Source: Clostridia bacterium
GTDB taxonomy: Bacteria; Bacillota; Clostridia; Christensenellales; Aristaeellaceae
NCBI GenBank assembly: GCA_017464305.1
Contig: JAFUDS010000007.1
Span: 1 to 64,000 of the forward strand
Direction: 5' to 3'
DNA length: 64,000 bases
A program made the translations under genes and the position numbers. The notes beneath the pieces are model-generated. The model was not told the origin of the DNA, did not search any database, and saw nothing but the letters and a program-made list of their open reading frames with translations. Positions 7,324 to 47,623 of the stretch are shown piece after piece (the stretch's first letter is position 1; each line of letters begins with the position of its first letter).

Positions 7324-7370
7324 TTCTCTTTCACTCCTTTTCTGTTCCTTCCGCGGTCTCGCCGCGAAAA

Positions 7371-10068: not shown

Positions 10069-10077
10069 AAAGTACAG

Positions 10078-10097: not shown

Positions 10098-10104
10098 CCG
10101 TCTT

Positions 10105-10362
10105 TTATACCGTCAGTACATATCCCTTTCCATAGATGGTCTGGATGGCGCCGAATCCAATCTTCGCCCGCAGCCGGCGGATGCACATATCCACCGACCG
10201 GGTGTCCGCCCCCCGGGGAAATCCCCATACATTCCGCAGCAGCGCCTCCCGGGAAACTACCCTCCCCCGTTGGGTCCGCATGCATTCATACAATTCATAC
10301 TCCGTCCGGGTCAGCCGGCAGTCCTTTCCATTGACCCGAATCTGCCGTTCCTCCGACTTCAT
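10105..10362 (-). CDS. Lone OmpR/PhoB-type winged-helix DNA-binding domain
   Basis: This 85-residue protein consists only of the OmpR/PhoB C-terminal effector domain (LTRTEYELYECMRTQRGRVV, then R-S-V-D-x2-I-x-R-L-R-x-K-I and a terminal Y-G-K-G-Y). The receiver domain is absent. The start at 10360-10362 has GGAGGAG seven bases upstream. The longer in-frame start lacks such a site. It is the last gene of the gntR-ABC operon, 29 bases after the permease, and so probably acts as a phosphorylation-independent regulator. It could be a decayed response regulator, but the domain is intact and well translated. Confidence 0.8.
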   Translation of the reverse strand: MKSEERQIRVNGKDCRLTRTEYELYECMRTQRGRVVSREALLRNVWGFPRGADTRSVDMCIRRLRAKIGFGAIQTIYGKGYVLTV

Positions 10363-10391
10363 GCTCGCTCCTCCTCTCCTGTGGGATGTTT

Positions 10392-22939: not shown

Positions 22940-23071
22940 CTGTTCCTCCTTCATCCGTGTTAAAATTGCTTATTCTTTTTTCGTCCGGCTTTCAGGGGCA
23001 CTCCGAAGAATGCCTTCTTCCGAGCCAGCGGGAGAATATCTCCCCATACAGGTGCAGAATACCAAATGCAC

Positions 23072-27311: not shown

Positions 27312-27328
27312 CTTATTTCCCCTCTCCC

Positions 27329-28816: not shown

Positions 28817-28895
28817 CAACAATCTCCTCCTTATTTTCGCGAAATGTATTTTCTTTCCTTTCCCTGGGCGGGGCAGGCTTTTTATTTTCTATTCA

Positions 28896-33800: not shown

Positions 33801-34296
33801 TGGAGGAATTCAGCCGGGGATCGCTGGCGCCAAAAACGATGCCGGCTCTTTTTCCTCCTGGCTGCATCTGCATTTTATATTTGATTCGAAAAACCGGCAG
33901 CGTCTCCGCCGCGAGGGCGATCTCATCCGGGCCAATCCACTCCGCTCCATGCCAGGCTGCCAGGGTCCGGCCCATGAGTCCGGTGGAAAAATGGGAGGAG
34001 GCCTCCAGCGCCTCTCCCAACTCATCCCAGACGGTGACCTGCCAGGTGTAATCCGTCTCCGGTTGAAGGGGAACTGCTGTTTCCGGATAGCGAATACCTA
34101 CGGAACGGCTCTTCTCCACCCTTCCGCTATCCCAGGTTATGCTGTTTCCAGACTGGACCGTCACGCGATATGCTTTCTGACAGGCGCCGTGGCACGCAGC
34201 ATTCATTTGCCAGGAAAAGGAAGGGTGTGGATCATCCACAGCAAGCGGTTCCACCCGATGGTTCGTTCTCAAATTCAGGATCGTTCTCTCTTTCAT
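30886..34296 (-). CDS. GH78 alpha-L-rhamnosidase
   Basis: This 1136-residue enzyme belongs to glycoside hydrolase family 78, which removes alpha-linked L-rhamnose from pectin rhamnogalacturonan, flavonoids or glycolipids. It shows N-terminal beta-sandwich domains (about 10-470), a carbohydrate-binding-like module with GIYEMRINGQKVGEEYLANG, and the (alpha/alpha)6 barrel. The barrel starts near SIPTDCPQRDERLGWAGDAQ and carries the conserved acidic cluster of bacterial rhamnosidases. A C-terminal beta-sandwich closes the chain. There is no signal peptide. The start at 34296 is chosen for GGAGGAAGGA upstream. A longer frame runs through a GH95 relic and is not used. An ACTAAAT-type site lies 85 bases upstream, linking it to the LacI regulon. 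Confidence 0.93.
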   Translation of the reverse strand: MKERTILNLRTNHRVEPLAVDDPHPSFSWQMNAACHGACQKAYRVTVQSGNSITWDSGRVEKSRSVGIRYPETAVPLQPETDYTWQVTVWDELGEALEASSHFSTGLMGRTLAAWHGAEWIGPDEIALAAETLPVFRIKYKMQMQPGGKRAGIVFGASDPRLNSSTKNNYLIHGENYIAYRLDVSELPAQVMVSRKGYAPGEQEERVIETMKVPLEVIHAENRFEEHAFEIVVSGNQMEVMTIDGVPLETREDPRMVSTNMRQVTEHTHLILNPLRKVLDVPVYPRLCQVGFTTDEQTTAVFSDYTIHHYGGEQAQIFGAETGATYAIFEGRTGVALQEDQMLVSPGTLAYADPSYGSQPMLRREFSLEGEVASARLYVAARGIYEMRINGQKVGEEYLANGDMDFCSRIFYTAYEVTSLLQAGQNALGATLASGWYQDQLFYSLEFQNWYGDREGLLALLVVTYRDGRKAYLPSDCSWQYFGQGPVRYAGNFNGEIYDATREKNVAGWDCPGFSAEGWRGACRMENRVRGREPLLQAKPDSGIFHTETLSASYVGTETRGEDQDTVYLYDMGINMVGIPEITFPQGEAGRKVTIRYAEILYPRLPADNPYCYGDLAGMILTENLRGALATDRYTMKGEKDEVFCPVYTFHGYRYVEISGLSAPLPAENIRGIVLSSVHETAQYESSHPLANQLFTNCLRSTVGNHLSIPTDCPQRDERLGWAGDAQVFSETATYLADMSAFYGFYNLLQRDAQGRDGTFHLYAPPYMEAGEAFALGYTWNAAGVVIPWQTFLQYGDRKTLEENYPSVRRHIEGMMMEKAPGKQYLTSHIGFLGDHLSLQDTDCMLMDNAQFYRSVRIAERMARLLGIDADAQRFLEYGDGLQTEWNLTFVNDEGQTQAADGTIQDTQASYALPLMCEVFTEENKARANQRLQAACERTGYTMTTGFMGTGPLLPALTRGGEAETAYRLFEQTNYPSWFYPVLNGATSVWERWNSYTIENGFGGQNGMNSFNHYSLGAVASWMIEYQAGIQREDVSGFQSFLLQPTPGGSFAWLKASYDSIYGTIHSEWTAEQGKLTSYRAVVPANTTATLYLPISKEAAARIPAMEGARFLGRREHHGQEKAIFALQAGTYEFQL

Positions 34297-34380
34297 TCTT
34301 CCTTCCTCCGTTCTTATTGTCGGTAAGTCCATTCTATTCAATTTTCCTGGAAAAAGAATGTCCGAATGAATCAATTCTCG

Positions 34381-34402
34381 TTGACCAAATTTATTAACTC
34401 TG
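34381..34402 (+). promoter_or_regulatory. ACTAAAT-type operator upstream of GH78 (site D)
   Basis: This site matches 18 of 22 bases of the lacI promoter/operator at 23103-23124 (TTGACYAAATTTAYTAA core). It lies 85 bases upstream of the GH78 start but in the opposite orientation. As a dyad-like protein site it could serve the GH78 promoter. No -10 box is clear in this orientation. Confidence 0.5.
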
Positions 34403-34439
34403 TGTTTTTTCTGTCCCATGCTTATTTCCGGAGTCTTCC

Positions 34440-34585
34440 CCCGGATTTCTGCATTCACCAGCCAGATGCCTAATTGCTCTAAAAATGCTTTGTTTCTATG
34501 CCACGATAGACCATCGCCCCCAGGGAACCATCCCCCAGGGGCAAGGCCTGCGTCCATGCCCGCTCCTCCGCGGGCTGATCAAAGG
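34440..34585 (-). pseudogene. GH95 gene relic
   Basis: Read on the minus strand, 34498-34579 matches the start of the intact GH95 gene (18041-18122) at 73 of 82 bases, counted by eye. It encodes DQPAEERAWTQALPLGDGSL and GAMVYRGI against HQPADERVWTQALPLGNGSL and GAMVYGGI. Resemblance fades toward 34440, where a stop codon and small losses break the frame. It is the leftover 5' end of a second fucosidase gene between the esterase and GH78 genes. Confidence 0.85.
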
Positions 34586-34606
34586 TTTACGCTTTCGTGG
34601 TTTTGT

Positions 34607-35893
34607 TCACTTTTTCTGGGCCGCCAGCCACTCCATCAGGGTGACCTCTTTTCCTTCCCAATGAACGGGCTGGCCATCAAAATCCACCCGGCAGTCGTCG
34701 TTAAACACGGGAATCCAGGCGAAATGGCCCATGTATTCCCAGGGCTCGCCCTGCTCGTTCTTAAACCCGGCATGAATGTCCATGATCTTTTCCCAATAGG
34801 TCATGTGGCAATTCTTGGCCCCGGCGGCCATCAGCCGCTGATAGGTGGGTAGGGCGTAATCTGCCGGCTTCACGATGGGGTCGTTTTGCGCATGGGTGAA
34901 CCAGAGGGGAATTTCCTTCAGATGGGCAATGTCCTCCTCCGTGATCCGGGCGTCCAGCATGGCCTCGCAGATGGGGAACGCCGCTGTGAAGAAATCCGGA
35001 TAGCTCATCAGCATCCGCATGGTCATAAATCCGCCGTTGGAATCCCCGCCCAGATAGATGCGCGTCCGGTCGATCACCGCCGGGAACCGCTCCAGGAATT
35101 GGTCGATCAGGGTCTTCAGCGCTTCCGTATATTTGGATTTTCCGGAATTTCCATACTTTCCGCTGCCGTCATCCAGCCACATGGTGTCGCACTGGGGCAC
35201 CAGCACAAAGGCGCCACCAAACTTCTCCTGCAGCCAGGGCTCGGTGAATTCCGTCACCTTGTTGCCGGACCAGGCGATGGGAAGATCCTGTCCGCCCTCT
35301 CCCGCACCATGTAGGAAGATGATGAGGGGCTTGGGGCCCTCTATCCTCTCCGGCACGAAATAGCCATAGCGGATAGGCAGCTCTGGATGGCAGGAGACCC
35401 CCGTCAGGAATCGATCTGCCTGGGGGTTGAATTCTCCCGCGGGCTTATCAAACACCAGCCCCTGCAGGGCCTTGTCTCCCTCCCCTATGGTTCCCACCAT
35501 GGTCACCCGATAATCCCGAATGGTATAGCTTTCGTGGCCATTGATGTTCTTGAAATTGGCCGCCAGGGCGGAGGAGCATTTGTAGATGGGCCCATAGGGC
35601 ATCTCCAGCGCCACAAAGACGCTCTTTCCCTCTACCTTGTTTCCCCGCGGGTCGCTGGGATGGGCGGCGCAGACGGGGCGATAGCCCCGGCTGGGCACGA
35701 ACTCATCCCGCTGGATGAAGCTCTTGGGCATTTCCACCTGGGTGCCATCCTTGTTCAGGATGGTTACATACACGCTGAAGGCCTCCGGGGAAAGCTCCGC
35801 TGCCTCCACCTCCCGGGGCATGGCCAGCACCAGCTTGGTCACATAGGGGCCAAAGTCAGTGACCTGTATCACTTGATAATACAGCAATCCCAT
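34607..35893 (-). CDS. Carbohydrate esterase / PHB-depolymerase-like alpha-beta hydrolase
   Basis: The 428-residue protein combines an N-terminal Ig-like domain (about 1-160, beta-rich) with an alpha/beta hydrolase (about 170-428). The oxyanion strand is PLIIFLHGAGEGG. The nucleophile elbow GGDSNGG (about 297-303) has Ser in a G-D-S-N-G context. A later Asp lies in HAQNDPIV and a His in HAGF or GHFAW. This is the predicted-peptidase/LpqC/CE1-like architecture, probably removing acetyl or feruloyl groups from imported oligosaccharides. There is no signal peptide. It is the last gene of the CUT1-GH39 run, 16 bases after GH39. Confidence 0.82.
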   Translation of the reverse strand: MGLLYYQVIQVTDFGPYVTKLVLAMPREVEAAELSPEAFSVYVTILNKDGTQVEMPKSFIQRDEFVPSRGYRPVCAAHPSDPRGNKVEGKSVFVALEMPYGPIYKCSSALAANFKNINGHESYTIRDYRVTMVGTIGEGDKALQGLVFDKPAGEFNPQADRFLTGVSCHPELPIRYGYFVPERIEGPKPLIIFLHGAGEGGQDLPIAWSGNKVTEFTEPWLQEKFGGAFVLVPQCDTMWLDDGSGKYGNSGKSKYTEALKTLIDQFLERFPAVIDRTRIYLGGDSNGGFMTMRMLMSYPDFFTAAFPICEAMLDARITEEDIAHLKEIPLWFTHAQNDPIVKPADYALPTYQRLMAAGAKNCHMTYWEKIMDIHAGFKNEQGEPWEYMGHFAWIPVFNDDCRVDFDGQPVHWEGKEVTLMEWLAAQKK

Positions 35894-35909
35894 AATGATT
35901 CTCCCTCTC

Positions 35910-37526
35910 TTACTTTTCGATCTGGAAGAAGTAGACGTCGTTCACGCCCAGCTCCGCCTCGAGCTTCAGCACGCCGTTTTCATAGGTAAAGGGCCATGCT
36001 TCCTCCGTCACCGCGCTGTCCTGCCGGATCTTCTCCACCTCCTGGCGATTCAGGGAAACAGGGCACCCCATGGCTTCCCACAGCTTCAGGGGATTGCCAT
36101 GATCCTCATCCACCCGGCGCAGGGTGACCTTGCCCGGCTTCGCATCCAGCTCCAGGCAAACCACAGCCTTTTCCTTCGGCAGATCCAGGTTCTTCATCTT
36201 CTGGCGGAACAGCAGCACCTGGGTGCTCTCCGGCTGCTGGAAGGCCGCGATGCCAATTTCGCCCAGGGTAGCGTCCTTCCCCAGATCCAGCCGTTGATCC
36301 CCGGCGTCCGCCAGCATCTTCATGGCATGGTATACCGGCTTGGGAATGCCGTTTTGCGTCAGCATGCCGAATCCGCCATGGAATTCCTCCGGGAAGGGAT
36401 GCAGCTCCTCAAAGATATCCGAGAAGCACCAGATAGAGGATCCATCCACGTTCTCCGCCACATCCAGGGCCGTTTTCACGTCATAGGCCGCCACCTTCCG
36501 GGTGTCATTGGTGTAGGAGGAGAAGCCCGCGTTCTCGTTCCATTCCGTGTAATACAGGGGCTTATCTCCCGCCTGCTGGCGGACGATGGCGGAGTTCTGA
36601 ATGAACACATCGTTGGGAATCTCCGTCGTTTCCGATTTATCGGGCATGAAATGCCGGAACCCGTTAAGCAGCGTCTTTTCCTTGATCTCGCTCATGGTCT
36701 GGGCCTGGCGCATCATGGTTTCCCGCATGGAGTCCCCGATTTCGTCCTTCCCCGTTTCCTCGTCGTTTTTCGGATCTCCCTGATCCTCCACGCCGCCCAG
36801 GGGATCCCCGGCGTATTGATGGGTGGAAACGAAATCTACCGGCACCTGGTGCTCTTCGCAGAAGCGCAGGAAGGATTTGACCCATTTGCTGCCGCTGGTG
36901 GAGGGGCCGCCCACGGGGATCTGATCATCGATCTCCTTGATGGCCCGGGCCGTCACCTCATACAGATGGAAATACTCCTCCCGGGTGCCGTTGAAGAAAG
37001 CCACGGGCAAATCCGGCTCATTCCAGACCTCGAAGCTCCAGGTGCGAATCTCCTCCAGGCCATACCGATGGATCAGGAACCGCAGGAAGGCCTGAATATA
37101 CTCCCTCCAGGCTTCGTCCTCCTCCGGGGGCACCACGATGGGCTTATAGAAGAACATCCCTTCCTTGGGCCGGCCTTCCTCCCGGTTCATCAGCTTCTTC
37201 GGCATGAAGGAAAGCTCCACGAAGGGCTTCATCCCCGCCTCCAGCACATTATCATAGGCCACGCCGCAGGCATTGAAATTGTACTCCTTGAACTGCTCTC
37301 CGCCGGGAATGGGGAACACATCGCTCAGATCGTTGATGGTCCGCATGTCGTCGTCAAAGATGCCATGGAACCGCACCCGCTGGATGCCCAGGGTATCATG
37401 AATATATTTCAGCTGCCGGGTATAGTCCGTCCGCAGGGCCAAAAGCGCATGCCCGGAGCCCACGCAGAATTGCCAGTGCTTCTTGTGGGGGATGGTGGGG
37501 GTATCCTTCCGAATCAGAAAGTCCAT
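35910..37526 (-). CDS. GH39 beta-xylosidase-like glycosidase
   Basis: The 538-residue intracellular enzyme is of glycoside hydrolase family 39 (retaining beta-xylosidase, alpha-L-iduronidase and relatives). The acid/base is E170 in FEVWNEPDL and the nucleophile E328 in YYTEWNE, both on expected strand ends of the (beta/alpha)8 barrel. A C-terminal beta-sandwich (about 410-538) closes the chain. The start at 37526 follows GAGAGGAG. It lies 93 bases downstream of the CUT1 permease with a hairpin in between, and 16 bases upstream of the esterase gene. Its likely job is to cut beta-xyloside or related units delivered by the adjacent transporter. Confidence 0.9.
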   Translation of the reverse strand: MDFLIRKDTPTIPHKKHWQFCVGSGHALLALRTDYTRQLKYIHDTLGIQRVRFHGIFDDDMRTINDLSDVFPIPGGEQFKEYNFNACGVAYDNVLEAGMKPFVELSFMPKKLMNREEGRPKEGMFFYKPIVVPPEEDEAWREYIQAFLRFLIHRYGLEEIRTWSFEVWNEPDLPVAFFNGTREEYFHLYEVTARAIKEIDDQIPVGGPSTSGSKWVKSFLRFCEEHQVPVDFVSTHQYAGDPLGGVEDQGDPKNDEETGKDEIGDSMRETMMRQAQTMSEIKEKTLLNGFRHFMPDKSETTEIPNDVFIQNSAIVRQQAGDKPLYYTEWNENAGFSSYTNDTRKVAAYDVKTALDVAENVDGSSIWCFSDIFEELHPFPEEFHGGFGMLTQNGIPKPVYHAMKMLADAGDQRLDLGKDATLGEIGIAAFQQPESTQVLLFRQKMKNLDLPKEKAVVCLELDAKPGKVTLRRVDEDHGNPLKLWEAMGCPVSLNRQEVEKIRQDSAVTEEAWPFTYENGVLKLEAELGVNDVYFFQIEK

Positions 37527-37570
37527 GTGAATAATCTCCTCTCTTCTTTTCCCAAGTGGTCTATAAAGGG

Positions 37571-37596
37571 AAAACCGCACCTTGCGATGCGGTTTT
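37571..37596 (-). terminator. Terminator or attenuator after the CUT1 permease gene
   Basis: A perfect 9-base stem, AAAACCGCA and TGCGGTTTT, is symmetrical and therefore gives a T run on either strand. On the minus strand it separates the transporter genes from GH39 and the esterase, and could reduce read-through into them. Confidence 0.7.
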
Positions 37597-37619
37597 CGGT
37601 TGTGAAAGTGCTTTTGTGA

Positions 37620-38510
37620 TTATCCCTTCACACCGCCCAGGGTGATGCCCTTGACGAAGTTGTTCTGGATGAAGGGGTAAACAATGACGATGGGCAGCAC
37701 GCCTACCACGGCCATGGCCATCCGGACAGACACGCTGGGGATGGCGGCCAGGCCTTGGTTGGCGTTAGAAATGGTGCTCGAATTCTGCATCAGGAACTGA
37801 ATGTTCTGAATCATCCGGTTCAGCAGGTTCTGGATGGAATACAGATCCGTCCGCTTGGTCAGATAGATGTACCCATTCATCCAGTCATTCCAATAGCCGA
37901 TGCCGATGAACATGCCGATGGTGGCGATAATGGGCTTCGCCAGGGGCAGCGCGATCTGCACGAAGGCGCGGGTCTCTGTGGCGCCGTCGATGTACGCCGC
38001 CTCCAGCAGCGCATCGGGAATGCTGGAGACGAAGTAGGACTTCACCATCAACACATTGAAGGCATTCATCATCAAGCCGGGCACCAGCAGCGCCCAGAAG
38101 GTATTCTTGATGCCGAATACATCGGAATAGTTGATGTAGGTGGGCACCAGGCCGCCATTGAACAGCATGGTGAAGAACACCAGGAAGGTAATCACGCCGC
38201 GACCCGGCAGGAAGGGCTTGGACAGAGCATAGCCCAGCAGGGTCGTAATCGTCAGGCCCAGCAGCGTACCCACAACGGTCAGCAGAATGGAGATGCCATA
38301 GGCATGCACCACGGAGTTACCGCTGGTAAAGATATACTCATAAGCATAAGCGCTGAGCTTCTCCGGGGTGAAGGAATAGCCGTTCCGAATCAGCACGTCA
38401 TTGTCCGTAAAGGAGGAGATCAGCAGCAGAATCAGCGGCAAAATGGCGCACAGGGTAATGATAATCATCACGACATGGCCAAAGACCTGGAATCTTTTTT
38501 CCTGTTTCAT
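37620..38510 (-). CDS. CUT1 sugar ABC transporter permease (LplC/YtcP-like)
   Basis: This 296-residue membrane protein has six helices. The EAA loop that docks the ATPase is EAAYIDGATETRAFVQIALPLAKPIIATI (about 185-213). It is the C-type permease of a CUT1 importer in the branch with large (over 500 residue) binding proteins. The gene follows the B-type permease by 18 bases and the binding protein lies upstream. No ATPase gene is present. In Firmicutes such systems commonly share a genome-encoded MsmX-like ATPase. Confidence 0.93.
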   Translation of the reverse strand: MKQEKRFQVFGHVVMIIITLCAILPLILLLISSFTDNDVLIRNGYSFTPEKLSAYAYEYIFTSGNSVVHAYGISILLTVVGTLLGLTITTLLGYALSKPFLPGRGVITFLVFFTMLFNGGLVPTYINYSDVFGIKNTFWALLVPGLMMNAFNVLMVKSYFVSSIPDALLEAAYIDGATETRAFVQIALPLAKPIIATIGMFIGIGYWNDWMNGYIYLTKRTDLYSIQNLLNRMIQNIQFLMQNSSTISNANQGLAAIPSVSVRMAMAVVGVLPIVIVYPFIQNNFVKGITLGGVKG

Positions 38511-38528
38511 GTGTTCTTTCCTCCTTTC

Positions 38529-39485
38529 TCAGAATAGGGCGTTTTCGGGGTCCAGCTTGCGAACCAGCAGGTTCGCGCTCAGCACCAGCACAAAGCCCAC
38601 CAGGCTCTGATACACACCCGCCGCGGCGGACATGGTGATGTCGCCCAGCTGCAGCAGCCCGCGATACACGTAGGTATCGATGGTGTTGGTCACAGGGTAC
38701 AGGGCGCCAGAGTTCTGGGGCACCTGATAGAACAGGCCGAAGTCGGAGTAGAAAATCCGTCCAACCGCCATCAGGGTCAGCATAATGATAGTAGGCCGCA
38801 ACAAGGGCAGGGTGATCTTGGTGATCTGCTGCCACTTGGTGGCGCCATCGATGGAGGCCGCCTCGTACAGGCTGCGGTCAAAGCCGATGATGGTGGACAG
38901 ATAGATGATACAGTTGTATCCGATGCCCTTCCACAGGTTCACAAACACCAGGATGAAGGGCCAATACTTCTGCTCCTGATACCAGGCGATGGGCGCTTTC
39001 CCCAAGGGCTTCAAAATCGAGTTATTGAAGAAGCCGTTTTCAGAGGACAGGAAGGCATACACCAGATAGCTGACGATAACCGCGGAAAGCAAGTATGGCA
39101 GCAGGATCACGGATTGATAGACCTTCTTCACCTTGGAGGTCAGCTCCGACAGGATGATGGCCACGCCCACCGCGAAAATCAGGTTCACGATGATGAACAC
39201 CACATTGTATAGGATGGTGTTTCGAGTAATGATAAACGCATCCTGGGTGGAGAATAGGTACTGGAAGTTCTTCAGCCCCGCCCAGGGGGAACCATAGATG
39301 CCGAACTTGGCCTTGTAGTTCTTGAAGGCCAGGATGATGCCGGGCATGGGCATATAGTTGTTGATGAACAGATAGATCAACCCGGGCAGCGCCATCAAGT
39401 AAATGGGAATGGACCGCTTCAGCGTCGCCTGTCGCCAGGCTTTGGACATTTTAGATTTGTCCTGAGTTTTCGCCATTTCTTTCAC
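38529..39485 (-). CDS. CUT1 sugar ABC transporter permease (LplB/YteP-like)
   Basis: This 318-residue inner-membrane permease has six helices and the EAA motif EAASIDGATKWQQITKITLPLLRPTI (about 220-245). The first 20 residues are polar and cytoplasmic. It pairs with the downstream permease to form the transmembrane pore. It lies 79 bases from the binding protein gene with a strong hairpin in the gap. The substrate is presumably a plant oligosaccharide, judging from the hydrolases around it. Confidence 0.93.
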   Translation of the reverse strand: MKEMAKTQDKSKMSKAWRQATLKRSIPIYLMALPGLIYLFINNYMPMPGIILAFKNYKAKFGIYGSPWAGLKNFQYLFSTQDAFIITRNTILYNVVFIIVNLIFAVGVAIILSELTSKVKKVYQSVILLPYLLSAVIVSYLVYAFLSSENGFFNNSILKPLGKAPIAWYQEQKYWPFILVFVNLWKGIGYNCIIYLSTIIGFDRSLYEAASIDGATKWQQITKITLPLLRPTIIMLTLMAVGRIFYSDFGLFYQVPQNSGALYPVTNTIDTYVYRGLLQLGDITMSAAAGVYQSLVGFVLVLSANLLVRKLDPENALF

Positions 39486-39493
39486 CTCACAAG

Positions 39494-39530
39494 AAAACCG
39501 GGCAGGGAAAGGAATGCTCTCCCTGCCCGG
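39494..39530 (-). terminator. Attenuator hairpin between binding-protein and permease genes
   Basis: On the minus strand an 11-base GC-rich stem, CCGGGCAGGGA and TCCCTGCCCGG, is followed by TTTTCTT. It sits directly after the binding protein gene and before the permease pair. The usual purpose is to make much more binding protein than permease. Confidence 0.8.
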
Positions 39531-39564
39531 AAATCATTTTATGATATTTTCCGTGATAGCTTTC

Positions 39565-41145
39565 TTACTGGATGCCGTTGGCCTCGGCCCAGGCATTCAG
39601 CTGCGCCTGCTTCTCGGCGATGTAGTCATCCAGGCCCGCGGACTTCAGCCGTTCCACCATCTTCGGGAGGCCTTCGTCGGGGTTCAGGAAGCCCAGCTCC
39701 AGCTGCCGCTGATACTCGTTGTATACGTTGGTCAGGGCGGTGTACTCGGCGGAAACGTCGCTGTTGTCGAACACAAAGCCCATGGCCTTGCTGGTCAGCG
39801 CGTTGTCGTTCCAGTTCTGCATCCGGGTCCACAGATCCAGGCTGTCGCCTTCCCAGATACGGGCAATGAACTGGTTGGGCATCTGCCAGTTGACGTTGTT
39901 GTAGAATTCAGAATTCTGGGCATCCACGCCGTCGGCGAACTTGATGTGTCCGTCGCCAGACTCCTGCCATTCCTTGCCTTCCTCGCCCCAGCAAATCAGG
40001 GTGGACAGCTCAGGATCGGTGTACAGCAGATTCAGCACCTGCATGGCGGCCACAGGATCATCGGTGTTCTGGTTCATGGCCCAGGGCATGGTGTTGTAAG
40101 CGCTGGAGCCCTTGAAGTCCGGACCCAGCTGGAAGATGGCCACAGGAGTGCCGCACAGGTTGCTTTCCTGCTGACGGATGCCGGGCTTGGTCGCGGTCTT
40201 ATAGGCGCACAGGCTGCCCGCCTTGACCTGGGTGGTGGTGGCGTTGGTCTCAGTGATGGCATCCGGAGAAATCCAGCCATTCTGGTTCCAACGATAGAAG
40301 CGCTCGCACAGCTCATAATACATGTCGCTGGAGAACAGGTCGCTCAGCTCCAGGCTGTTGACCGGATCCAGCAGCACACCGAACATGTCGCTGGGATAGT
40401 CCATGGCCAGGATCTGGGAAACGGTGCTGCCAGGATCGGTGTAGAACACAGTCTTTTCCGGATACTGGGCATGCAGCTTGGCGAAGGTATCTTCAATGAA
40501 GTCGAAATCGGTGTAGATGATTTCGTCATCGGGATTGGCGTACATGGAGGCGTAATCCACGCCGATCTCGTCCAGATACTTGGTGGGGATGGAGATGCCG
40601 AACTTGCCGGAGGCGTCATCCTTCTTCACCGGGATGCCGTACAGGGTTCCGCCCACGCGGCAGCCGCCCAGCTCGATGGAGGTGAAGGTATCAATGATGC
40701 CCTGGCCATAGGTCGCCAGCAGGTCATCCTCCTCCAGGTCGTACAGATAGCCCTTGTTGTAGCAGGGCATGAAGCCGACGGAAACGGCGTTGAACAGATC
40801 CACCTGCTCGCCGGAGGCCAGCATCAGGTTCATGTTCTGGGCGTAGGAAGCGGAGTCCATGGGCAGCAGCTCCACGTTGACGCCGATCTTTTCCCGGGTG
40901 ATTTCGCTCATCTTTTCAGCCACGCGGTCCGTGCCCTGCAGGCGGCCAGCCCAGGTCATGAAAGCGATGACCACGGTAGGATACTTGCCGGAATCGATAC
41001 GGTCCTGGGCAGCCTTGGCAGCGGCGGAACCATCATCAGCCTTCTCCAGGCGGGGCAGATCTTCCGCCACGGCCAGGCCGCTGACGCTAAAGATCATGGT
41101 AACTGCTAACACGGTCACCAACAGCATAGAAAGAAATCTCTTCAT
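39565..41145 (-). CDS. CUT1 extracellular sugar-binding protein
   Basis: This 526-residue solute-binding protein captures a sugar outside the membrane for the two permeases downstream. It begins with a signal peptide (KRFLSMLLVTVLAVTMIFSVSGLAVA), and the mature part has the type I binding-protein fold of the LplA/YtcQ group (NAVSVGFMPCYNKGYLYDL, DYPSDMFGVLLDP). No lipobox cysteine follows the signal peptide. The normal anchor of Gram-positive binding proteins is therefore missing, as in the two oligopeptide-binding proteins of this window. The start at 41145 follows AAGGAGG. It is transcribed from its own near-consensus promoter. Confidence 0.93.
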   Translation of the reverse strand: MKRFLSMLLVTVLAVTMIFSVSGLAVAEDLPRLEKADDGSAAAKAAQDRIDSGKYPTVVIAFMTWAGRLQGTDRVAEKMSEITREKIGVNVELLPMDSASYAQNMNLMLASGEQVDLFNAVSVGFMPCYNKGYLYDLEEDDLLATYGQGIIDTFTSIELGGCRVGGTLYGIPVKKDDASGKFGISIPTKYLDEIGVDYASMYANPDDEIIYTDFDFIEDTFAKLHAQYPEKTVFYTDPGSTVSQILAMDYPSDMFGVLLDPVNSLELSDLFSSDMYYELCERFYRWNQNGWISPDAITETNATTTQVKAGSLCAYKTATKPGIRQQESNLCGTPVAIFQLGPDFKGSSAYNTMPWAMNQNTDDPVAAMQVLNLLYTDPELSTLICWGEEGKEWQESGDGHIKFADGVDAQNSEFYNNVNWQMPNQFIARIWEGDSLDLWTRMQNWNDNALTSKAMGFVFDNSDVSAEYTALTNVYNEYQRQLELGFLNPDEGLPKMVERLKSAGLDDYIAEKQAQLNAWAEANGIQ

Positions 41146-41208
41146 GGGGTACCTCCTTCTTTTTGTCCGTTTCGGGCTAAAATCGCCCAAATGAGTTTGT
41201 TGTCTACG

Positions 41209-41237
41209 ACTATACGGGAATTTTACTGGCTTGTCAA
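41209..41237 (-). promoter_or_regulatory. Promoter of the CUT1-GH39-esterase operon
   Basis: On the minus strand TTGACA (41232-41237), 17 bases, TATAGT (41209-41214) lies 63 bases upstream of the binding protein start. No ACTAAAT-type site is visible here, so this operon may be controlled differently. Confidence 0.8.
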
Positions 41238-41293
41238 GCCCCTGATACAATTTTTCCTCCTCTCGTCTCAGCATGACAGATCTTATCACCTAT

Positions 41294-42772
41294 TCATCTG
41301 CCACGGGTCCTGGCCACCGCGCCCTGCCAGCCTTCCAGCCTGGCCTGGCGATCCTCGGCGGCCATTTGGGGGGTATATTCCAGCCGGTTCAGGAGGGAGA
41401 AGACGGATGCGTCATAGATCCCAGCGGACAGCCCCGCCGCGAAGGCGGCGCCGATGCCGCTGAGCTCCTCCTGATCCGGCACACGAACCGGAATGTTCAA
41501 TAGATCGCTTTGGAACTGCATCAGATAGGCGTTCCGCGTGGGCCCGCCGTCCACCCGCAGCTCCCCGATGGGCATCCCCGCGCTCCTTCGCATGGCCTCC
41601 ACGATATCCGTAATCTGATAGGCAATGCAGTCCAGGGCAGCCCGGACAATTTCATTCTTCCCCGTGGACCGGGACATGCCCGTCAGGCTGGCGCGGGCAG
41701 CGCTGTCCCAATAGGGGGCGCCCAGCCCGCTAAAGGCGGGCACCAGATAGGTCTGATCCCCCGGGGACGCAGCCCGGGCCAGAGCCTCCGTATCTCCGGG
41801 AGAGGAGATGAGTCCCAAATCATTTTTCAGCCAGGAGATCACCGCGCCGGTGTAATTGATGTTCCCCTCCAGCACGTAGTTCACCTTTCCCCCCAGCTTC
41901 CAGGCCAGGGAGGTGACCACCCCCTGATCGCTCCAGGCGGGATTTTCCCCGATGTTCATCATGATGGAGGATCCAGTGCCATAGGTGGCCTTGATCATCC
42001 CCGGCCGCAGGCACCCCTGGCCCAGCAGTGCGCCATGGGAATCCCCCAGCACGCCCCGGATGGGAATCGGATGATCCAGCCACCCCTCCAGGTCCGTCTC
42101 GCCGAAGTCCCCGTCCGAATTCGTGACCTCCGCCATGCAGGCGGCAGGGATCCCGAAGATGGCCAACAGCTCCGGATCCCAGGCCAGGGTTTTCAAGTTA
42201 AATAATTGGGTTCGGGAAGCGTTGGAGTAATCTGTTTGATGCCGCTTTCCCCCCGTCAGCTTCCACACCAGCCAGCTGTCGATGGTTCCCACCGCCAGCT
42301 GCCCCTGCTTCGCTGCCTCCGCGGCGCTCTCCACGTGCTGAAAAATCCAGCTCAGCTTCGCCGCAGGGAAATAGGGGGACAGGGGCAAACCCGTCTTTTG
42401 CCGAACCAGGTCTCCATAGCCAGCCGCCTCCAGGCCCGCGCACAGCTCCGTTGCCCGGGCGCATTGCCAAACGATGGCGTTGCACACGGGCCGATGGGTC
42501 TCCCGATGCCAGCAGACCGAGGTTTCCCGTTGGTTGCTGATGCCCATTACCGCCAGGTCGTTCCGGTCGATGCCTGCCTTTTCCACCAGATCGCGAATCA
42601 CGCCCAGGGTATTGGCATAGATTTCCTCCGGATCGTGCTCGACCCAGCCCTGGTCGTTGGTGATCTGCCGATGAGGCCGATCCGCCCGGCACAGCAGCTC
42701 TCCCCGCTCGCTGAACAGCAGCGCCTTGGTGCCCTGGGTGCTCTGATCCACGGACAGCACATACTTCGCCAT
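41294..42772 (-). CDS. FGGY-family carbohydrate kinase
   Basis: This 492-residue kinase phosphorylates a sugar or polyol with ATP in the cytoplasm. It begins with the FGGY phosphate-1 loop VLSVDQSTQGTKALLF (about 5-20). GYG-x-GSS-type TYGTGSSIMMN (about 267) and the FGGY signature region near GELRVDGGPTRNAYLMQFQSDLL (about 405-427) are also seen. GWVEHDPEEIYANTL is shared with glycerol kinases, but many sugar kinases of this family share it too. It is the last gene of an isomerase/split-transketolase operon, 3 bases after the transketolase C-subunit. The context suggests it phosphorylates the ketose made by the upstream isomerase. A xylulo- or apulokinase is more likely here than a glycerol kinase. 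Confidence 0.85.
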   Translation of the reverse strand: MAKYVLSVDQSTQGTKALLFSERGELLCRADRPHRQITNDQGWVEHDPEEIYANTLGVIRDLVEKAGIDRNDLAVMGISNQRETSVCWHRETHRPVCNAIVWQCARATELCAGLEAAGYGDLVRQKTGLPLSPYFPAAKLSWIFQHVESAAEAAKQGQLAVGTIDSWLVWKLTGGKRHQTDYSNASRTQLFNLKTLAWDPELLAIFGIPAACMAEVTNSDGDFGETDLEGWLDHPIPIRGVLGDSHGALLGQGCLRPGMIKATYGTGSSIMMNIGENPAWSDQGVVTSLAWKLGGKVNYVLEGNINYTGAVISWLKNDLGLISSPGDTEALARAASPGDQTYLVPAFSGLGAPYWDSAARASLTGMSRSTGKNEIVRAALDCIAYQITDIVEAMRRSAGMPIGELRVDGGPTRNAYLMQFQSDLLNIPVRVPDQEELSGIGAAFAAGLSAGIYDASVFSLLNRLEYTPQMAAEDRQARLEGWQGAVARTRGR

Positions 42773-42775
42773 GCC

Positions 42776-43711
42776 TCAGCCCTCCAGCGCCTGGGAGACG
42801 GTTTTCGCAATCCCCTCCGCGTCCAGGCCATAATGGTGGAACACCTCCTGGGAGGTTCCGGTGATGACCGGGGCGTCCGGCAGGGCTAAGTTGATAACCC
42901 GCTTCGGATCGTTGGCGGAAATCACCTGCGCCACCATGCTGCCCAACCCGCCGAAGGGGGCATGCTCCTCCACGGAAACCACCAGCTTCTTCCCCGCGGC
43001 CGCCGCCAGCAGCCCTTCCTGATCCAGAGGCTTCACGCAGTACATATCCAGCACACCGGCGGAGATCCCCTGCTTCGCCAGCAGCTCCGCCGCGTCCTTG
43101 GCCGGCTTCACCATCTCCCCGCAGGCCACGATCAGCACATCGCTGCCCTGGGCGATTTCGGTGGCTTTGTTCATTTCAAAAGGAACGCAGTTTTCCTCGT
43201 ACACATCCTCCACCGGGTTTCTCCCCAGCCGGATATAGGCCGTCTGCTGATCCTGCAACAGAGCCTCAAACAGCTTCCGGGTCTGATGCCGGTCGCTGGG
43301 CAGGTATACCCGCATGCCCGGGATAGCGCTCATGGCGGCGATATCCTGGGCGGAATGATGGGTCATGCCCAGGGCACCGTAGCTGACGCCGCCGGAGATG
43401 CCCACCAGCTTTACATTCGTGTTGGAATAAGCACAGTCCACCTTGCACTGCTCATAGCTGCGGGTGGAGATGAAGGAAGCCGGGCTGACGGCAAAGGCCT
43501 TCTTTCCGCAGGAGGCCAGGCCCGCCGCGACGCTGACCAGGTTCTGCTCCGCGATGCCGATTTCCACAAACTGCGCCGGATATTCCTCCGCGAAGGAGGT
43601 CAGGGAGGCGGAGCCCCGGCTGTCGCTGCACAGCACGACCACGTCCTTATCCTGGGCCGCTGCTTCCTTCAGCACTTCGCACATCACCGCCCGATTGGCG
43701 ATTTTATTCAT
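42776..43711 (-). CDS. Transketolase, C-terminal subunit
   Basis: The 311-residue chain is the C-terminal half of a split transketolase. It contains the pyrimidine-binding Glu region (EYPAQFVEIGIAEQNLVSVAAGLASCGKKAF, about 39-70), the SGGVSYGALGMTHHSAQDIAAMSAIPGM stretch that forms the active site, and the C-terminal regulatory-like domain ending in GLDAEGIAKTV. With the N-subunit it transfers a two-carbon unit from a ketose phosphate to an aldose phosphate. It overlaps the N-subunit gene by 8 bases and is followed by the FGGY kinase. Confidence 0.95.
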   Translation of the reverse strand: MNKIANRAVMCEVLKEAAAQDKDVVVLCSDSRGSASLTSFAEEYPAQFVEIGIAEQNLVSVAAGLASCGKKAFAVSPASFISTRSYEQCKVDCAYSNTNVKLVGISGGVSYGALGMTHHSAQDIAAMSAIPGMRVYLPSDRHQTRKLFEALLQDQQTAYIRLGRNPVEDVYEENCVPFEMNKATEIAQGSDVLIVACGEMVKPAKDAAELLAKQGISAGVLDMYCVKPLDQEGLLAAAAGKKLVVSVEEHAPFGGLGSMVAQVISANDPKRVINLALPDAPVITGTSQEVFHHYGLDAEGIAKTVSQALEG

Positions 43712-44549
43712 GAGCCGCTCCTCCTTTCGCCAGGGCTTCCTTCCGCGCCTTCAAATCCCGGGAGATTTGCTCATATTCCTCCTGGTTGGGCAGATGATGG
43801 TGCCAGGAAGCCTTGTTCTCCATCAGGGGGGAGCCCTTCCCCTTCACCGTGTTGGCAATCAGGATGGTAGGCTTGCCCTTGGTGCGCTCCGCCTCCTGGA
43901 AGGCGGCTTCCAGCTGATCCACATCGTTTCCATCCGCCACGTCGATGACGTGCCAATCGAAGGCCGCGAACCGGGCGTGAAGGTCATGGTGACCCATGAC
44001 CTCCTCCGTGTTTCCGGAGATCTGCAGATGGTTCCGATCGATCACTGCGCATAGGTTGTCCAATCTATAATGCCCAGCAGCCATCAGGGCCTCCCAGATG
44101 GAGCCCTCCGCCAGCTCGCCATCCCCCATCAGGGTATACACTCGATAGGGCCGCTGATCCATCCGCCCTGCCAGCGCCATGCCGACGCAGACGGAGAGCC
44201 CATGGCCCAGGGAGCCGGAGTTCATCTCGATGCCCGGCAGGGTGTTGTGGGGATGGCCGATATATTCCGAGCCAAAGCGGGAAAACTGCGCCTTTACTTC
44301 CTCAATATCCAGGAACCCCTTGTCCGCCAGCACGGCGTACAGGGTTTCCACGCAATGCCCCTTGGACAGCACAAAGCGATCCCGGTTCGGATCCTCCGGA
44401 TGCTTGGGATCCACGTTCATCCGATGGTACAGAGTCAGCATGATCTCCATGCTGCTCATATCCCCGCCAATATGGCCTCCACCGCCGGAGACGATGATAT
44501 CCAGCACGTCCTGGCGAAGGTCATAGGCTTTTAATGCCAATGTATTCAT
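43704..44549 (-). CDS. Transketolase, N-terminal subunit
   Basis: The 281-residue chain is the thiamine diphosphate-binding N-terminal half of a split transketolase. It has the substrate-channel GGGHIGGDMSSMEI (about 20-33), KGHCVETLYAVLADKGFL, and the cofactor motif GDGELAEGSIWEALMAAGHYRLDNLCAVIDRNHLQ (about 142-176) ending in the Asn that coordinates Mg2+. It couples to the C-subunit by an 8-base overlap. It lies 21 bases after the isomerase-like gene, so the four genes form one operon. Split transketolases with a private kinase are typical of dedicated sugar pathways. Confidence 0.95.
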   Translation of the reverse strand: MNTLALKAYDLRQDVLDIIVSGGGGHIGGDMSSMEIMLTLYHRMNVDPKHPEDPNRDRFVLSKGHCVETLYAVLADKGFLDIEEVKAQFSRFGSEYIGHPHNTLPGIEMNSGSLGHGLSVCVGMALAGRMDQRPYRVYTLMGDGELAEGSIWEALMAAGHYRLDNLCAVIDRNHLQISGNTEEVMGHHDLHARFAAFDWHVIDVADGNDVDQLEAAFQEAERTKGKPTILIANTVKGKGSPLMENKASWHHHLPNQEEYEQISRDLKARKEALAKGGAAHE

Positions 44550-44570
44550 GCGCGCCTCTTTCCATTCCGT

Positions 44571-45995
44571 TTATACTTCATCAAAGACCACGTCTTCCCC
44601 GTGGAGATAAGCCTTTACCTTCTCCTCAATGGGGTCGTACAGATCCGGCTTGACGCCGATATACTTGCAGGCTTCGTAGACGATTGGCACCACATCCCCA
44701 TGAATGGCGGCCACATGATGGATGTAGGGCCCCTCCACCACCTTGGCCTCCAGCCGCTTCAGGTTGTTCACCTCTACCCAGACATAGGTTCCCTTCGTCC
44801 AGGGGCCATCAATGCCCCGGGCATGGCCCAGCAGGATGGAATATTCCCCTTCGTCCCCATCGAACCGCACCAGGCTCATGGGCCCATGCTTCGCCTCGGC
44901 GGACACCGCGCCGTTCTGCTTGAAGGCCACGGGCACGCAGATGGTGGGCTTTTCCTTGGCCACGGAGATGGGCCAGGGGCCGCAGTGCTGCAGCAGCTCG
45001 CCATTGTCGTTGTCCGGATGCCGCACTGTCCAGTCGGAGAACATCACCCGCCGCTCGTTCATGGAGGCCGCTTCCGCGATCAGCTGGGAAATAGCGCCAT
45101 GGATATCCGTCTCGCAAACCACGGGAATGCCCTCTTCGTTCAGCAGGGCGTTGGCTGCGCAGGGCATGATGTGGATCTCATCCTGCAGGGCGTTCCAGCA
45201 CTGGATGGCAATGGCGTTGCAGCCATATTTCTCTGCCAGGCTCTTCATGGCCACCTTCAGCTCCGCCACGCTCCGCAGCTGCTCGGGCACGATGCTGCAG
45301 GTCATGTTCTCCTGGCAGTAGGCCACCACCTTGTCCACCTCATTTTTCTCCGCCCGCCATTTTTTCATTTCGGCGTAGAGCTCCGGCAGCGGAATGGGGG
45401 CCAGCTGGATGTTGAATTTCTCCAGCAGCTCGCCCTCGTTGCACATGGTGGACCAGAAATCGAAGGGCCGGGGGCCGATCTGCAGCACCCGGGTATGCCG
45501 GAATACCTTGACCACATTGCACACCGCCAGGAAATCCCGAATCCCCCGTTCGAATTCCGGATCCGTCAGGTTGCAGTTGTTCATATAAGTGAAGGGGATC
45601 CGGAACCGGCGCAGCACCTTGCCCGTGGCAAACAGACCGCACTGGCTGTCCCGCAGCCGCATGCCATTCTCGTCCGGCCGCTCATCCCGGGGGCCCCACA
45701 GCAGCACGGGCACGTTCAGCTCCTTGGCCAGCCGGGCGCATTCATACTCCGTGCCGAAATTGGCATGGGGCAGGAAGAGGCCGTCCACCTTCTCCCGGCG
45801 GAATTTCTCCGCGATGGCGTACATGCCTGCATCGTCGTACAGCAGGCCTTCGTCGTTGATGTCGTCGATATCCACAAAGTCGATGTCCAGCTCCCGCAGG
45901 CGATCCGCGGTCAGCTTGCGATACTCCACCGCCGCCGGGGCGCTGAAGATGGCCCGCCGAGTGGGGGCAAAACCAAGTTTAATCTTCGCTTTCAT
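44571..45995 (-). CDS. L-fucose/L-arabinose isomerase-like sugar isomerase
   Basis: This 474-residue protein resembles the L-fucose isomerase superfamily, Mn2+-dependent ketol-isomerases that convert an aldose to a ketose. It has alternating Rossmann-type segments at the N-terminus (KLGFAPTRRAIFSAPAAVEYRKLT, VDIDDINDE, VDGLFLPHANFGTEYECARLAKEL). A central segment follows (CNAIAIQCWNALQDEIHIMPCAANALLNEEGIPVVCETDIHGAISQLI) with the acidic and His residues expected for the metal site. It heads the transketolase-kinase operon and lies 59 bases downstream of a perfect 14-base palindrome. The sugar is unknown. Fucose, arabinose, xylose or apiose would fit the gene order, but the downstream transketolase points to a pentose-type product. 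Confidence 0.75.
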   Translation of the reverse strand: MKAKIKLGFAPTRRAIFSAPAAVEYRKLTADRLRELDIDFVDIDDINDEGLLYDDAGMYAIAEKFRREKVDGLFLPHANFGTEYECARLAKELNVPVLLWGPRDERPDENGMRLRDSQCGLFATGKVLRRFRIPFTYMNNCNLTDPEFERGIRDFLAVCNVVKVFRHTRVLQIGPRPFDFWSTMCNEGELLEKFNIQLAPIPLPELYAEMKKWRAEKNEVDKVVAYCQENMTCSIVPEQLRSVAELKVAMKSLAEKYGCNAIAIQCWNALQDEIHIMPCAANALLNEEGIPVVCETDIHGAISQLIAEAASMNERRVMFSDWTVRHPDNDNGELLQHCGPWPISVAKEKPTICVPVAFKQNGAVSAEAKHGPMSLVRFDGDEGEYSILLGHARGIDGPWTKGTYVWVEVNNLKRLEAKVVEGPYIHHVAAIHGDVVPIVYEACKYIGVKPDLYDPIEEKVKAYLHGEDVVFDEV

Positions 45996-46053
45996 GGGGG
46001 TATCCCTCCTTTTGGGGGTATTTTATCACCGCAGAAGCTAAATTTCTATAAAT

Positions 46054-46086
46054 AATTTAGTAAATTATTGCTTAATTTACTAAATT
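46054..46086. promoter_or_regulatory. Operator palindrome of the isomerase-transketolase operon (site C)
   Basis: A perfect 14-base inverted repeat, AATTTAGTAAATTA and TAATTTACTAAATT, has a 5-base spacer and lies 59 bases upstream of the operon start. It contains the same ACTAAAT/ATTTAGT half sites as the lacI, GH3 and GH78 control regions. A further overlapping CTAAATT/AATTTAG pair lies just downstream (about 46037-46060). Confidence 0.7.
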
Positions 46087-46149
46087 CTATGGAATTTCGA
46101 TCGATTTGTCGGTTTGTTTACCATTATAGATACATTTTCGATATGAGAA

Positions 46150-46175
46150 GAGGGCTGCCCTTTCCAGCAGCCCTC
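46150..46175 (-). terminator. Hairpin downstream of radA
   Basis: On the minus strand GAGGGCTGC-loop-GCAGCCCTC is followed by TTCTCAT. It lies between radA and the isomerase operon. The stem is perfect but the T tract is poor. Confidence 0.6.
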
Positions 46176-46243
46176 CCAGCGGTAGGATCATATCCATTCA
46201 AGATGGATGTATCTTCCTGTTTCTTCCCTGTCTCTTGACAAAT

Positions 46244-47623
46244 TTAGAACAGCACGCTCAAAGCCTGGAGAATAGTATCCACGCCAATGATTTTAACCCC
46301 TTCCGGAGGCGTTAAAATACGGCGGGCATTCTCCCGGGGGACGATCAGAGTGGTGAACCCCAGCCTCGCGCACTCCGCCACCCGGCGTTCGCACTGGGGC
46401 ACCGTCCGAATCTCCCCTGCCAGACCCACCTCGCCCATGACGGCTACCTCTGCCCCCACGGCCTGATCCTTCAGGCTGGAAGCCACCGCCGCGCATAGGG
46501 CCAGGTCCGCCGCCGGCTCGCTGAGCTCCAGCCCCCCGGCCACGTTGATATATACATCCTGATTATAGGTCCGCTGCCCGGCTCGCTTCTCCAGCACCGC
46601 CAGCAGCATGGCGATGCGCCCGGCGTCCGCGCCGTTCACCGTCCGCCGGGGGGAATTCAAATAGCTTTGGCTGGTCAGAGCCTGCACGTCGCACAGCAGC
46701 GGCCGGCTGCCCTCCAAGCCGCAGAACACGGTGCTGCCGCTGGCCCCCTGGGCCCGGTGGCTCAGCAGCTCCTCGCTGGGATTGGGCACCACCTGCATCC
46801 CCTTGCCCGTCATGCGGAAAACCCCCAGCTCGTTCACGGAGCCGAAGCGGTTCTTCACCGCCCGCAGCAGCCGATAATCCTGCTGCCGGTCCCCTTCAAA
46901 ATACAGCACCACATCCACCATATGCTCCAGCATCCGGGGGCCGGCAATGGCGCCGTCCTTGGTGACATGGCCCACCACGAACATGGCTGTCCCCGTCTCC
47001 TTGCAGATGCGCATGAGCAGACTGGTGCTCTCCCGAATCTGGGACACAGACCCCGGGGCGGAGGCCATTTCCGGGCGATACATGGTCTGGATGGAGTCCA
47101 CCACCGCCACGTCCGGCTGCAGCTTTCGCAGCTGGGTTTCCACCGCATCCAGGGCATTCTCAGCCAGCACATACAGCCCATCGGAGGCAATTTCCAGCCG
47201 CCGGGCCCGCAGCTTGATCTGCCGGGCGCTTTCCTCCCCGGAGATGTAGAGAATTCGCTTCCCTTCCCCTGCCAGATTGGCGCAGACCTGCAGCAGCAGG
47301 GTGCTCTTGCCGATGCCCGGATCGCCGCCGATCAGCATCAGGCCCCCCTCCACAATGCCGCCCCCCAGCACCCGATCCAGCTCGCTGATGCCCGTGGGCG
47401 TCCGCAGGGTCGCGTCCTCCGGGATATCCTTCAGCAGCAGGGGGCTGGCCCCCGTGCCGGGCCGTTGATTCGCCGCCAGCTTACCCGGGGCCACCTTCTC
47501 CACCACGGCGGTCACGCTTTCCTCTAAAGTATTCCAGGCCCCGCAGCTGGGGCAGCGCCCCACCCATCGGGGCGTCTCATATCCGCAGGCCGTGCAGGCA
47601 TAAACCGATCTCGCTTTTGCCAT
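46244..47623 (-). CDS. radA: DNA repair protein RadA/Sms
   Basis: RadA is a hexameric helicase that drives branch migration in recombination and repair. The 459-residue protein has the N-terminal zinc finger C10-x2-C13...C24-x2-C27 and RecA-type Walker A GGDPGIGKSTLL (about 98-109). The family-specific KNRFG motif is in VKNRFGSVNELGVF, and the C-terminal Lon-like domain contains LELSEPAADLALCAAVASS. Length and motifs are typical. No radA-type operon partner (disA, for example) is present, and it stands alone between the sugar locus and gdhA. Confidence 0.97.
   Translation of the reverse strand: MAKARSVYACTACGYETPRWVGRCPSCGAWNTLEESVTAVVEKVAPGKLAANQRPGTGASPLLLKDIPEDATLRTPTGISELDRVLGGGIVEGGLMLIGGDPGIGKSTLLLQVCANLAGEGKRILYISGEESARQIKLRARRLEIASDGLYVLAENALDAVETQLRKLQPDVAVVDSIQTMYRPEMASAPGSVSQIRESTSLLMRICKETGTAMFVVGHVTKDGAIAGPRMLEHMVDVVLYFEGDRQQDYRLLRAVKNRFGSVNELGVFRMTGKGMQVVPNPSEELLSHRAQGASGSTVFCGLEGSRPLLCDVQALTSQSYLNSPRRTVNGADAGRIAMLLAVLEKRAGQRTYNQDVYINVAGGLELSEPAADLALCAAVASSLKDQAVGAEVAVMGEVGLAGEIRTVPQCERRVAECARLGFTTLIVPRENARRILTPPEGVKIIGVDTILQALSVLF

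Follow-up and report, generated by a model that had tools for sequence, protein, structure and literature searches.

Here, we analysed a four-gene operon in a stretch of 64,000 nucleotides (positions 1 to 64,000 of contig JAFUDS010000007.1, assembly GCA_017464305.1), which belongs to a Clostridia bacterium of the order Christensenellales and is referred to as the window. The operon codes for an isomerase, a two-subunit transketolase and a kinase, and very probably serves to catabolise D-apiose, a branched sugar of pectic rhamnogalacturonan II (RG-II) and many plant glycosides, via the non-oxidative route. We base this assignment on the AptB-type transketolase, the kinase pocket, the clade of the associated transporters, the linkage to apiosidase-family genes and an isomerase swap between related loci. 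A first-pass annotation of the window had already guessed at a dedicated apiose pathway; the same lines of evidence support that central guess, while the arguments brought forward for it (isomerase, kinase test, RG-II) are corrected below. Going one step further, we lean slightly towards the view that the isomerase, here termed type 1, stands for a second family of D-apiose isomerases that goes back to a recruitment of its own within the FucI/AraA superfamily. This family would be interchangeable with the enterobacterial type and would have spread horizontally, together with an apulose kinase sister to GlpK, among Bacillota, Synergistota and Actinomycetota, largely in ruminant guts.

The operon and its proposed reactions

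The four open reading frames are all located on the minus strand at 41294-45995, and frames, coordinates and families agree with the operon of isomerase, kinase and two-subunit transketolase claimed by the first-pass annotation:

44571-45995, minus strand: aldose-ketose isomerase from the superfamily of L-fucose and L-arabinose isomerases; type 1, proposed to act on D-apiose (474 aa)
43704-44549, minus strand: AptA-like N-subunit (thiamine diphosphate) of a split transketolase (281 aa; PF00456, 192 bits)
42776-43711, minus strand: AptB-like C-subunit of the split transketolase (311 aa; PF02779 and PF02780; motif SYGALGMTHH)
41294-42772, minus strand: GlpK-like FGGY kinase, proposed D-apulose kinase (492 aa; PF00370 and PF02782)

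Isomerase and N-subunit genes are separated by 21 nt, the two subunit genes overlap by 8 nt and a gap of 3 nt precedes the kinase gene. The host assembly is incomplete (2.53 Mb in 51 contigs, the window lying on contig C4). Since it contains a separate glycerol kinase on contig C1, 44% identical to the operon kinase, and two more split-type transketolase N-subunits on contigs C32 and C51, the operon versions of both enzymes are additional copies. A near-identical locus (L084, 99%) is found in Clostridia bacterium RGIG4436, a metagenome-assembled genome (MAG) from roe-deer omasum.

In the proposed route, the isomerase would convert D-apiose to D-apulose. C3 of apulose bears two CH2OH groups, and the kinase would phosphorylate one of them to give apulose 4-phosphate. 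This end of apulose resembles a glycerol substituted at its C2, which would account for the use of a glycerol kinase scaffold. By transfer of a two-carbon ketol unit, the transketolase would then turn apulose 4-phosphate and glyceraldehyde 3-phosphate into xylulose 5-phosphate and dihydroxyacetone phosphate, so that no further special enzyme would be needed. This is the non-oxidative apiose scheme that Carter et al. reportedly described in 2018.

A portable cassette found across phyla

In 8 of 396 genomes of the order, we found an isomerase that shares 69% identity or more with the window isomerase. From a scan of named genomes, we kept the best 80 of 464 related stretches (77-99% identical), on which all counts out of 80 are based. 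Judged by title and counted by eye, a ruminant host or the rumen is mentioned for 27 of these loci, and another 26 stem from RUG assemblies, which we take to be rumen MAGs. Named carriers include Blautia parvula NBRC 113351 and three strains of Butyrivibrio sp. (MB2005, WCD3002, LC3010). Within 8 kb of the isomerase, the N-subunit is encoded in 71/80 loci, the C-subunit in 68/80, the kinase in 60/80 and all three in 57/80. Where at least 3 kb upstream and at least 5 kb downstream are available, all three partners are present in 39 of 43 loci; the four exceptions are L103 and L144 without kinase, L118 without transketolase and L160, in which the kinase is located just past 8 kb. A LacI-type gene was found near the cassette in 57/80 loci. 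Because the remaining neighbours differ between loci, the conserved unit is a portable cassette and not the set of carbohydrate-active enzymes (CAZymes) of the window.

Six Synergistota MAGs (L108, L119, L122, L124, L128, L131) contain an isomerase 88-91% identical to that of the window, and a Coriobacteriaceae MAG (L160, Actinomycetota) one of 77% identity. In most of these loci the cassette genes adjoin; L108 ends just past the isomerase, and L160 shows a single run of isomerase, both transketolase subunits, binding protein, DUF2291 gene, ATPase, permease and kinase. On sequence identity, and provided that these MAGs were binned correctly, the cassette looks as if it had been transferred from one phylum to another.

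An AptB-type transketolase

In a tree of C-subunits, from which five mostly fused rows of the motif set were omitted beforehand, a single clade of 26 rows (support 98/90) unites the window protein with 17 cassette relatives, four related pairs and the AptB proteins of E. coli, Sodalis, Rahnella and Rhizobium; 20 other transketolases are placed outside it. Clade members share a motif YGxLxx(T/S)HH, in which Leu occupies the position of Asp in the GEDGPTH motif of fused transketolases (26/26 members versus 2/25 others). Twenty of these 25 others have Asp or Asn at this position, and the fused ones of the order read GEDGPTH or a close variant. We take this Asp to be Asp469 of E. coli TktA, which presumably recognises a hydroxyl group of the substrate close to the carbon that reacts; an additional CH2OH group on a quaternary C3 might clash with it. 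The N-subunit is 40-43% identical to AptA proteins of apiose clusters.

Another split transketolase family with the similar motif YGxxGMSHH (L203, genome G000, contig C51, 258091-258885; and L179) adjoins the apiose group in the tree (94/76). At L229 (genome G094, 8880-12102), a transketolase pair with the apiose-type motif and a Ser/Ser kinase (see below) stand beside a ribose-type importer, with no isomerase labelled; this is perhaps a further variant.

A glycerol kinase scaffold with a non-glycerol pocket

The operon kinase is 42.5% identical to E. coli GlpK. It scores above the cut-off of one NCBIfam glycerol kinase model (NF000756, 589 bits, cut-off 498), just below that of another (TIGR01311, 581 bits, cut-off 590) and far under those of the xylulokinase, ribulokinase and fuculokinase models. 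We take Arg84, Glu85, Trp104, Tyr136, Asp246, Gln247 and Phe271 (numbering with Met) to be the glycerol-binding residues of E. coli GlpK. Gln247 and Phe271 are both replaced by Ser in the window kinase and in all 60 isomerase-linked kinases longer than 400 aa, and the same Ser/Ser pair occurs in 5/5 apiose-cluster kinases checked. Among 25 other kinases fetched from the order, Gln is kept in 24 and Phe in 23; the only one lacking both (L065) adjoins a transketolase pair with the same motif as the cassette. The rest of the pocket is conserved in the 60 cassette kinases, with Arg84, Glu85, Trp104 and Asp246 present in 60/60 and Tyr136 in 53 (Phe in 7).

The first-pass annotation had treated clustering with glycerol kinases as evidence against an apiose pathway. 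The kinase does adjoin GlpK in the tree, but this has no bearing on apiose, because E. coli AplK is itself GlpK-like (490-495 bits on glycerol kinase models) and both lack the two glycerol-pocket residues.

Transporters and apiosidase-family genes at related loci

The apiose cluster of E. coli SE15, named as the query in PMC13001218, contains a ribose-type importer and a DUF2291 gene. According to the same paper, E. coli and E. fergusonii strains with an aplK-aptA-aptB cluster grow on D-apiose and K-12 does not. In 20/80 loci, we found an ATP-binding cassette (ABC) transporter ATPase that groups with the transporters of enterobacterial and rhizobial apiose clusters (27 rows, 100/100) and is 46-49% identical to that of E. 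coli; RbsA, AlsA, XylG, MglA and YtfR fall outside the clade. The binding proteins group likewise (22 rows, 99/99), and in L038 a DUF2291 gene (150 bits) accompanies the importer, as in E. coli.

Genes of the apiosidase family PF13204 are linked to the cassette as well. Such a gene (243 bits) is located next to a LacI-kinase-isomerase-transketolase arrangement in L034 (= L117), a DUF5060/DUF5605-type member (54 bits) follows the kinase in L037, and in L162 of Blautia parvula an apiosidase-family gene stands upstream with the LacI gene in between. Relatives of such genes detected by phmmer lie within 10 kb in 8/80 loci, those in L098 and L143 being weaker matches. Over the order, PF13204 exceeds its cut-off in 5/8 genomes with a type-1 isomerase versus 25/388 others (Fisher p = 8.6e-5). 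In the host, PF13204 matches are confined to contigs C1 and C8 (64.7 bits), with none on window contig C4; the best match of the host gene among the loci is in L090, within 4 kb of the isomerase of that locus. The stretches C1 9000-18000 and C8 15407-24407 of the host genome (G000) consist of the same 9001 bases (100%), PF13204 gene included, which reflects either an assembly duplicate or a real duplication.

The isomerase and its exchange

To judge from its matches, the window isomerase belongs, as a remote member, to the L-fucose/L-arabinose isomerase superfamily. It reaches 26.9 bits on Pfam Fucose_iso_C (gathering score 29.3), and its sole NCBIfam match is sulfoquinovose isomerase (NF048012) with 105 bits at a cut-off of 700. 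We rejected a sulfoquinovose isomerase identity, as this is a superfamily-level match and the Sodalis apiose-cluster isomerase obtains 119 bits on the same model. E295, D321 and H427 align with E337, D361 and H528 of E. coli FucI, presumably the metal ligands. Among solved structures, phmmer found no match to the window isomerase at E up to 1 and a profile search only L-arabinose isomerase (E 0.006); the Sodalis isomerase as query gave none at E up to 0.1. The likeness to L-fucose isomerase noted in the first-pass annotation holds at the level of the FucI family, though distantly.

The same annotation took the FucI-type isomerase as a sign of a variant pathway. The family as such is not unusual: in Sodalis praecaptivus, Rahnella aquatilis and Klebsiella pneumoniae, plasmid-borne clusters of the apiose type include, flanked by aptB and the kinase gene, a protein labelled 'L-fucose/L-arabinose isomerase family' or 'fucose isomerase', which we infer to be ApsI. 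What does differ is the clade, as the window isomerase is 27-29% identical to these proteins and both fall into separate clades of the tree, each supported by 100/100.

Three loci of the same order (L221, L222, L224) encode an isomerase that is 44-46% identical to the Sodalis one, in combination with both transketolase subunits (43-54% identical to those of the window) and a GlpK-like Ser/Ser kinase (40-45%). Their C-subunits fall inside the AptB clade; two of the three loci (L221, L222) also contain an apiosidase-family gene, and the LacI protein of L221 is 54% identical to that of the window. As these loci have the same partners, either isomerase type seems able to fill this step. Elsewhere, the isomerase position is taken by a TIM-barrel (PF01261) protein in the Rhizobium cluster, and in the E. 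coli cluster an isomerase is lacking and two SDR genes are present. L223 (G090, 6436-13245) holds an isomerase of a third group, with 38% identity to the window isomerase, at a distance of 4 kb from a gene of the apiosidase family; across 20 kb, neither a transketolase nor a kinase of the cassette kind is labelled.

Points against an apiose cassette and competing explanations

Several observations weigh against the apiose assignment. The window isomerase is, on tree and identity, not orthologous to the enterobacterial apiose-cluster isomerase, with which it has the superfamily alone in common. In the kinase tree, rooted on distant xylulo- and fuculokinases, the window clade and GlpK are sister groups, and AplK branches outside them; we thus discarded orthology with AplK and kept the pocket argument alone. 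The Ser/Ser pocket may moreover be ancestral and GlpK derived, and hence not apulose-specific; whichever form is ancestral, the residues indicate that the pocket of the cassette kinase is not of the glycerol type. The N-subunit clade of the window does not join AptA, its placement being unresolved in a tree in which one row (L118) is a 49-residue fragment.

Similar reservations apply to the genomic context. The tree program issued a long-branch warning for the transporter trees; an apiose-type transporter was not seen in 60/80 loci, some of them cut by contig ends, and a family search of the window proteins found neither such a transporter nor a PF13204 gene. PF13204 is a broad family. The Fisher test on its occurrence ignores kinship, as 4 of the 8 carriers belong to one family; the carriers G079, G077 and G111 have no PF13204 match. 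Partners are missing in L103, L144 and L118 as mentioned, and in G264 (L035 = L123) the isomerase occurs without transketolase or kinase in an 11-kb contig that leaves 1.8 kb downstream. To our knowledge, neither enzyme activity nor growth has been reported for any type-1 cassette.

The same enzyme logic would also suit a different aldose, small or branched, provided that its ketose ends like glycerol; a tetrose (erythrose or threose to erythrulose) would be an example. The position of the kinase next to glycerol kinases, the separate isomerase clade and the presence of apiose-type transporters in just 20/80 loci would be in line with such a substrate, which we nevertheless consider unlikely, as the clade of the transporters, the linkage to apiosidase-family genes, the grouping with AptB and the exchange of isomerases all speak for apiose. 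Even less probable is the use of an ordinary pentose or 6-deoxyhexose (D-arabinose, L-fucose, L-arabinose, D-xylose) with a transketolase serving the pentose phosphate pathway. The isomerase does belong to the FucI/AraA superfamily, and split transketolases are common in the order (13/26 genomes with a match in an open frame below 330 residues). However, the four genes include no aldolase or epimerase, the kinase scores are far too low for the pentulose and fuculose kinases, and in motif and clade the transketolase departs from the other sampled split transketolases. A pathway of the sulfoquinovose transketolase (sulfo-TK) type, which combines an isomerase with a two-subunit transketolase according to PMC11659671 and in which the kinase would act on glycerol from sulfoquinovosyl glycerol, is, judged on isomerase and kinase, very improbable despite the sole NCBIfam match of the isomerase, given 105 bits at a cut-off of 700 and a kinase without two glycerol-pocket residues.

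Neighbouring genes and the source of the sugar

Downstream of the cassette, the window encodes an importer and several CAZymes, among them members of glycoside hydrolase (GH) families:

39565-41289, minus strand: solute-binding protein (DUF3502) of an oligosaccharide-type ABC importer, adjoining the cassette downstream; true start probably near 41145
38529-39485, minus strand: ABC importer permease 1, with homologues at related loci
37620-38510, minus strand: ABC importer permease 2 (family match)
35910-37580: GH39 (Pfam)
34607-35893, minus strand: putative esterase (EstA_Ig_like and Abhydrolase_2, Pfam)
30886-34557: GH78 (Pfam)
24675-27491: 'GH106-like' protein, matching a rhamnosidase model at just 25 bits and nothing in Pfam at E up to 1e-5
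18014-20236: GH95 (Pfam), 21 kb away

The CAZyme neighbours listed by the first-pass annotation were thus found as far as GH39, GH78, the esterase and GH95 are concerned; the GH106-like protein is weakly matched and GH95 too distant to be called adjacent. Around related cassettes, a homologue cluster for the solute-binding protein occurs in 4/80 loci and a homologue of the esterase in 7/80 (both including L084). Relatives of GH78 occur in 17/80 loci, GH2, GH29, GH42 or GH127 in some, and esterase and SDE182-like genes near the Butyrivibrio cassettes. RG-II as the source of the sugar, as proposed earlier, is unproven: the cassette is embedded in differing CAZyme sets and the host PF13204 genes are on C1 and C8 instead of C4. 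The window importer is of the oligosaccharide type and the window has no PF13204 gene; the sugar may stem from RG-II, other pectin or a plant glycoside.

Two further window proteins are worth recording. An Sde182-like protein with a nucleoside-hydrolase-like domain (27329-28822) recurs in L086, L149, L150, L154 and L155 (5/80, 63-66% identity); as a guess, it perhaps cleaves furanosides, acting on apiofuranosides. A GH3 enzyme (20321-22954) has a reversed Pfam order of C-domain (36-290), Fn3-like domain (344-415) and N-domain (607-850).

Candidate regulatory sites

Two candidate sites were located around the operon:

46054-46086: possible operator ahead of the isomerase, a 33-bp inverted repeat AATTTAGTAAATTA-5-TAATTTACTAAATT; 0 expected in window shuffles
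41209-41237, minus strand: promoter-like TTGACA-17-TATAGT between kinase and transporter genes, 11/12 consensus

The half-site TTTAGTAAA or its reverse precedes the isomerase within 330 bases in 8/80 loci (including L084) versus 9/3469 control tiles, but 12/398 AT-rich tiles; we regard this recurrence as a weak lead for an operator and made no use of it. The promoter-like site would fit two transcription units, but is no commoner than in shuffles (6 such sites in 34500-46300 versus 5.7 expected).

Comparison with known systems

The apiose pathway is already known, also from Clostridia, which were shown to degrade apiose in a 2018 paper according to PMC13001218. As far as seen, the new element is the type-1 isomerase as a diverged second clade. 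Neither this clade nor the GlpK-sister kinase or the spread over Bacillota, Synergistota and Actinomycetota was found in the apiose literature searched, although they may still be published. If our view is correct, genes annotated as glycerol kinase, transketolase and fucose/arabinose-type isomerase become readable as apiose catabolism in many gut genomes, with Blautia parvula and Butyrivibrio sp. as named carriers. Three residues, two in the kinase and one in the transketolase, would serve as markers for apiose use, and the cassette would provide a natural case of one pathway step served by several isomerase types.

With the Enterobacterales apiose pathway (apsI, aplK, aptA, aptB and a ribose-type transporter with DUF2291), the window cassette shares the enzyme classes, the AptB-clade transketolase and an AplK-like pocket, and 20/80 of its relatives share the transporter type. 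It differs in the isomerase clade, in a kinase sister to GlpK instead of AplK and in the oligosaccharide-type transporter; its relatives mostly have a LacI-type gene nearby. The apiose-like cluster of Rhizobium sp. CC-CFT758 (L168) likewise has AptA/AptB, a GlpK-like Ser/Ser kinase and a transporter with DUF2291, but the TIM-barrel protein in place of the isomerase. SftI/SqvD of the sulfo-TK pathway have the isomerase superfamily and the two-subunit transketolase in common with the cassette and differ in their partners, the window isomerase scoring far under the SftI cut-off. GlpK, finally, corresponds to the window kinase over most of its sequence and differs from it by Gln247 and Phe271, at which the window kinase has Ser.

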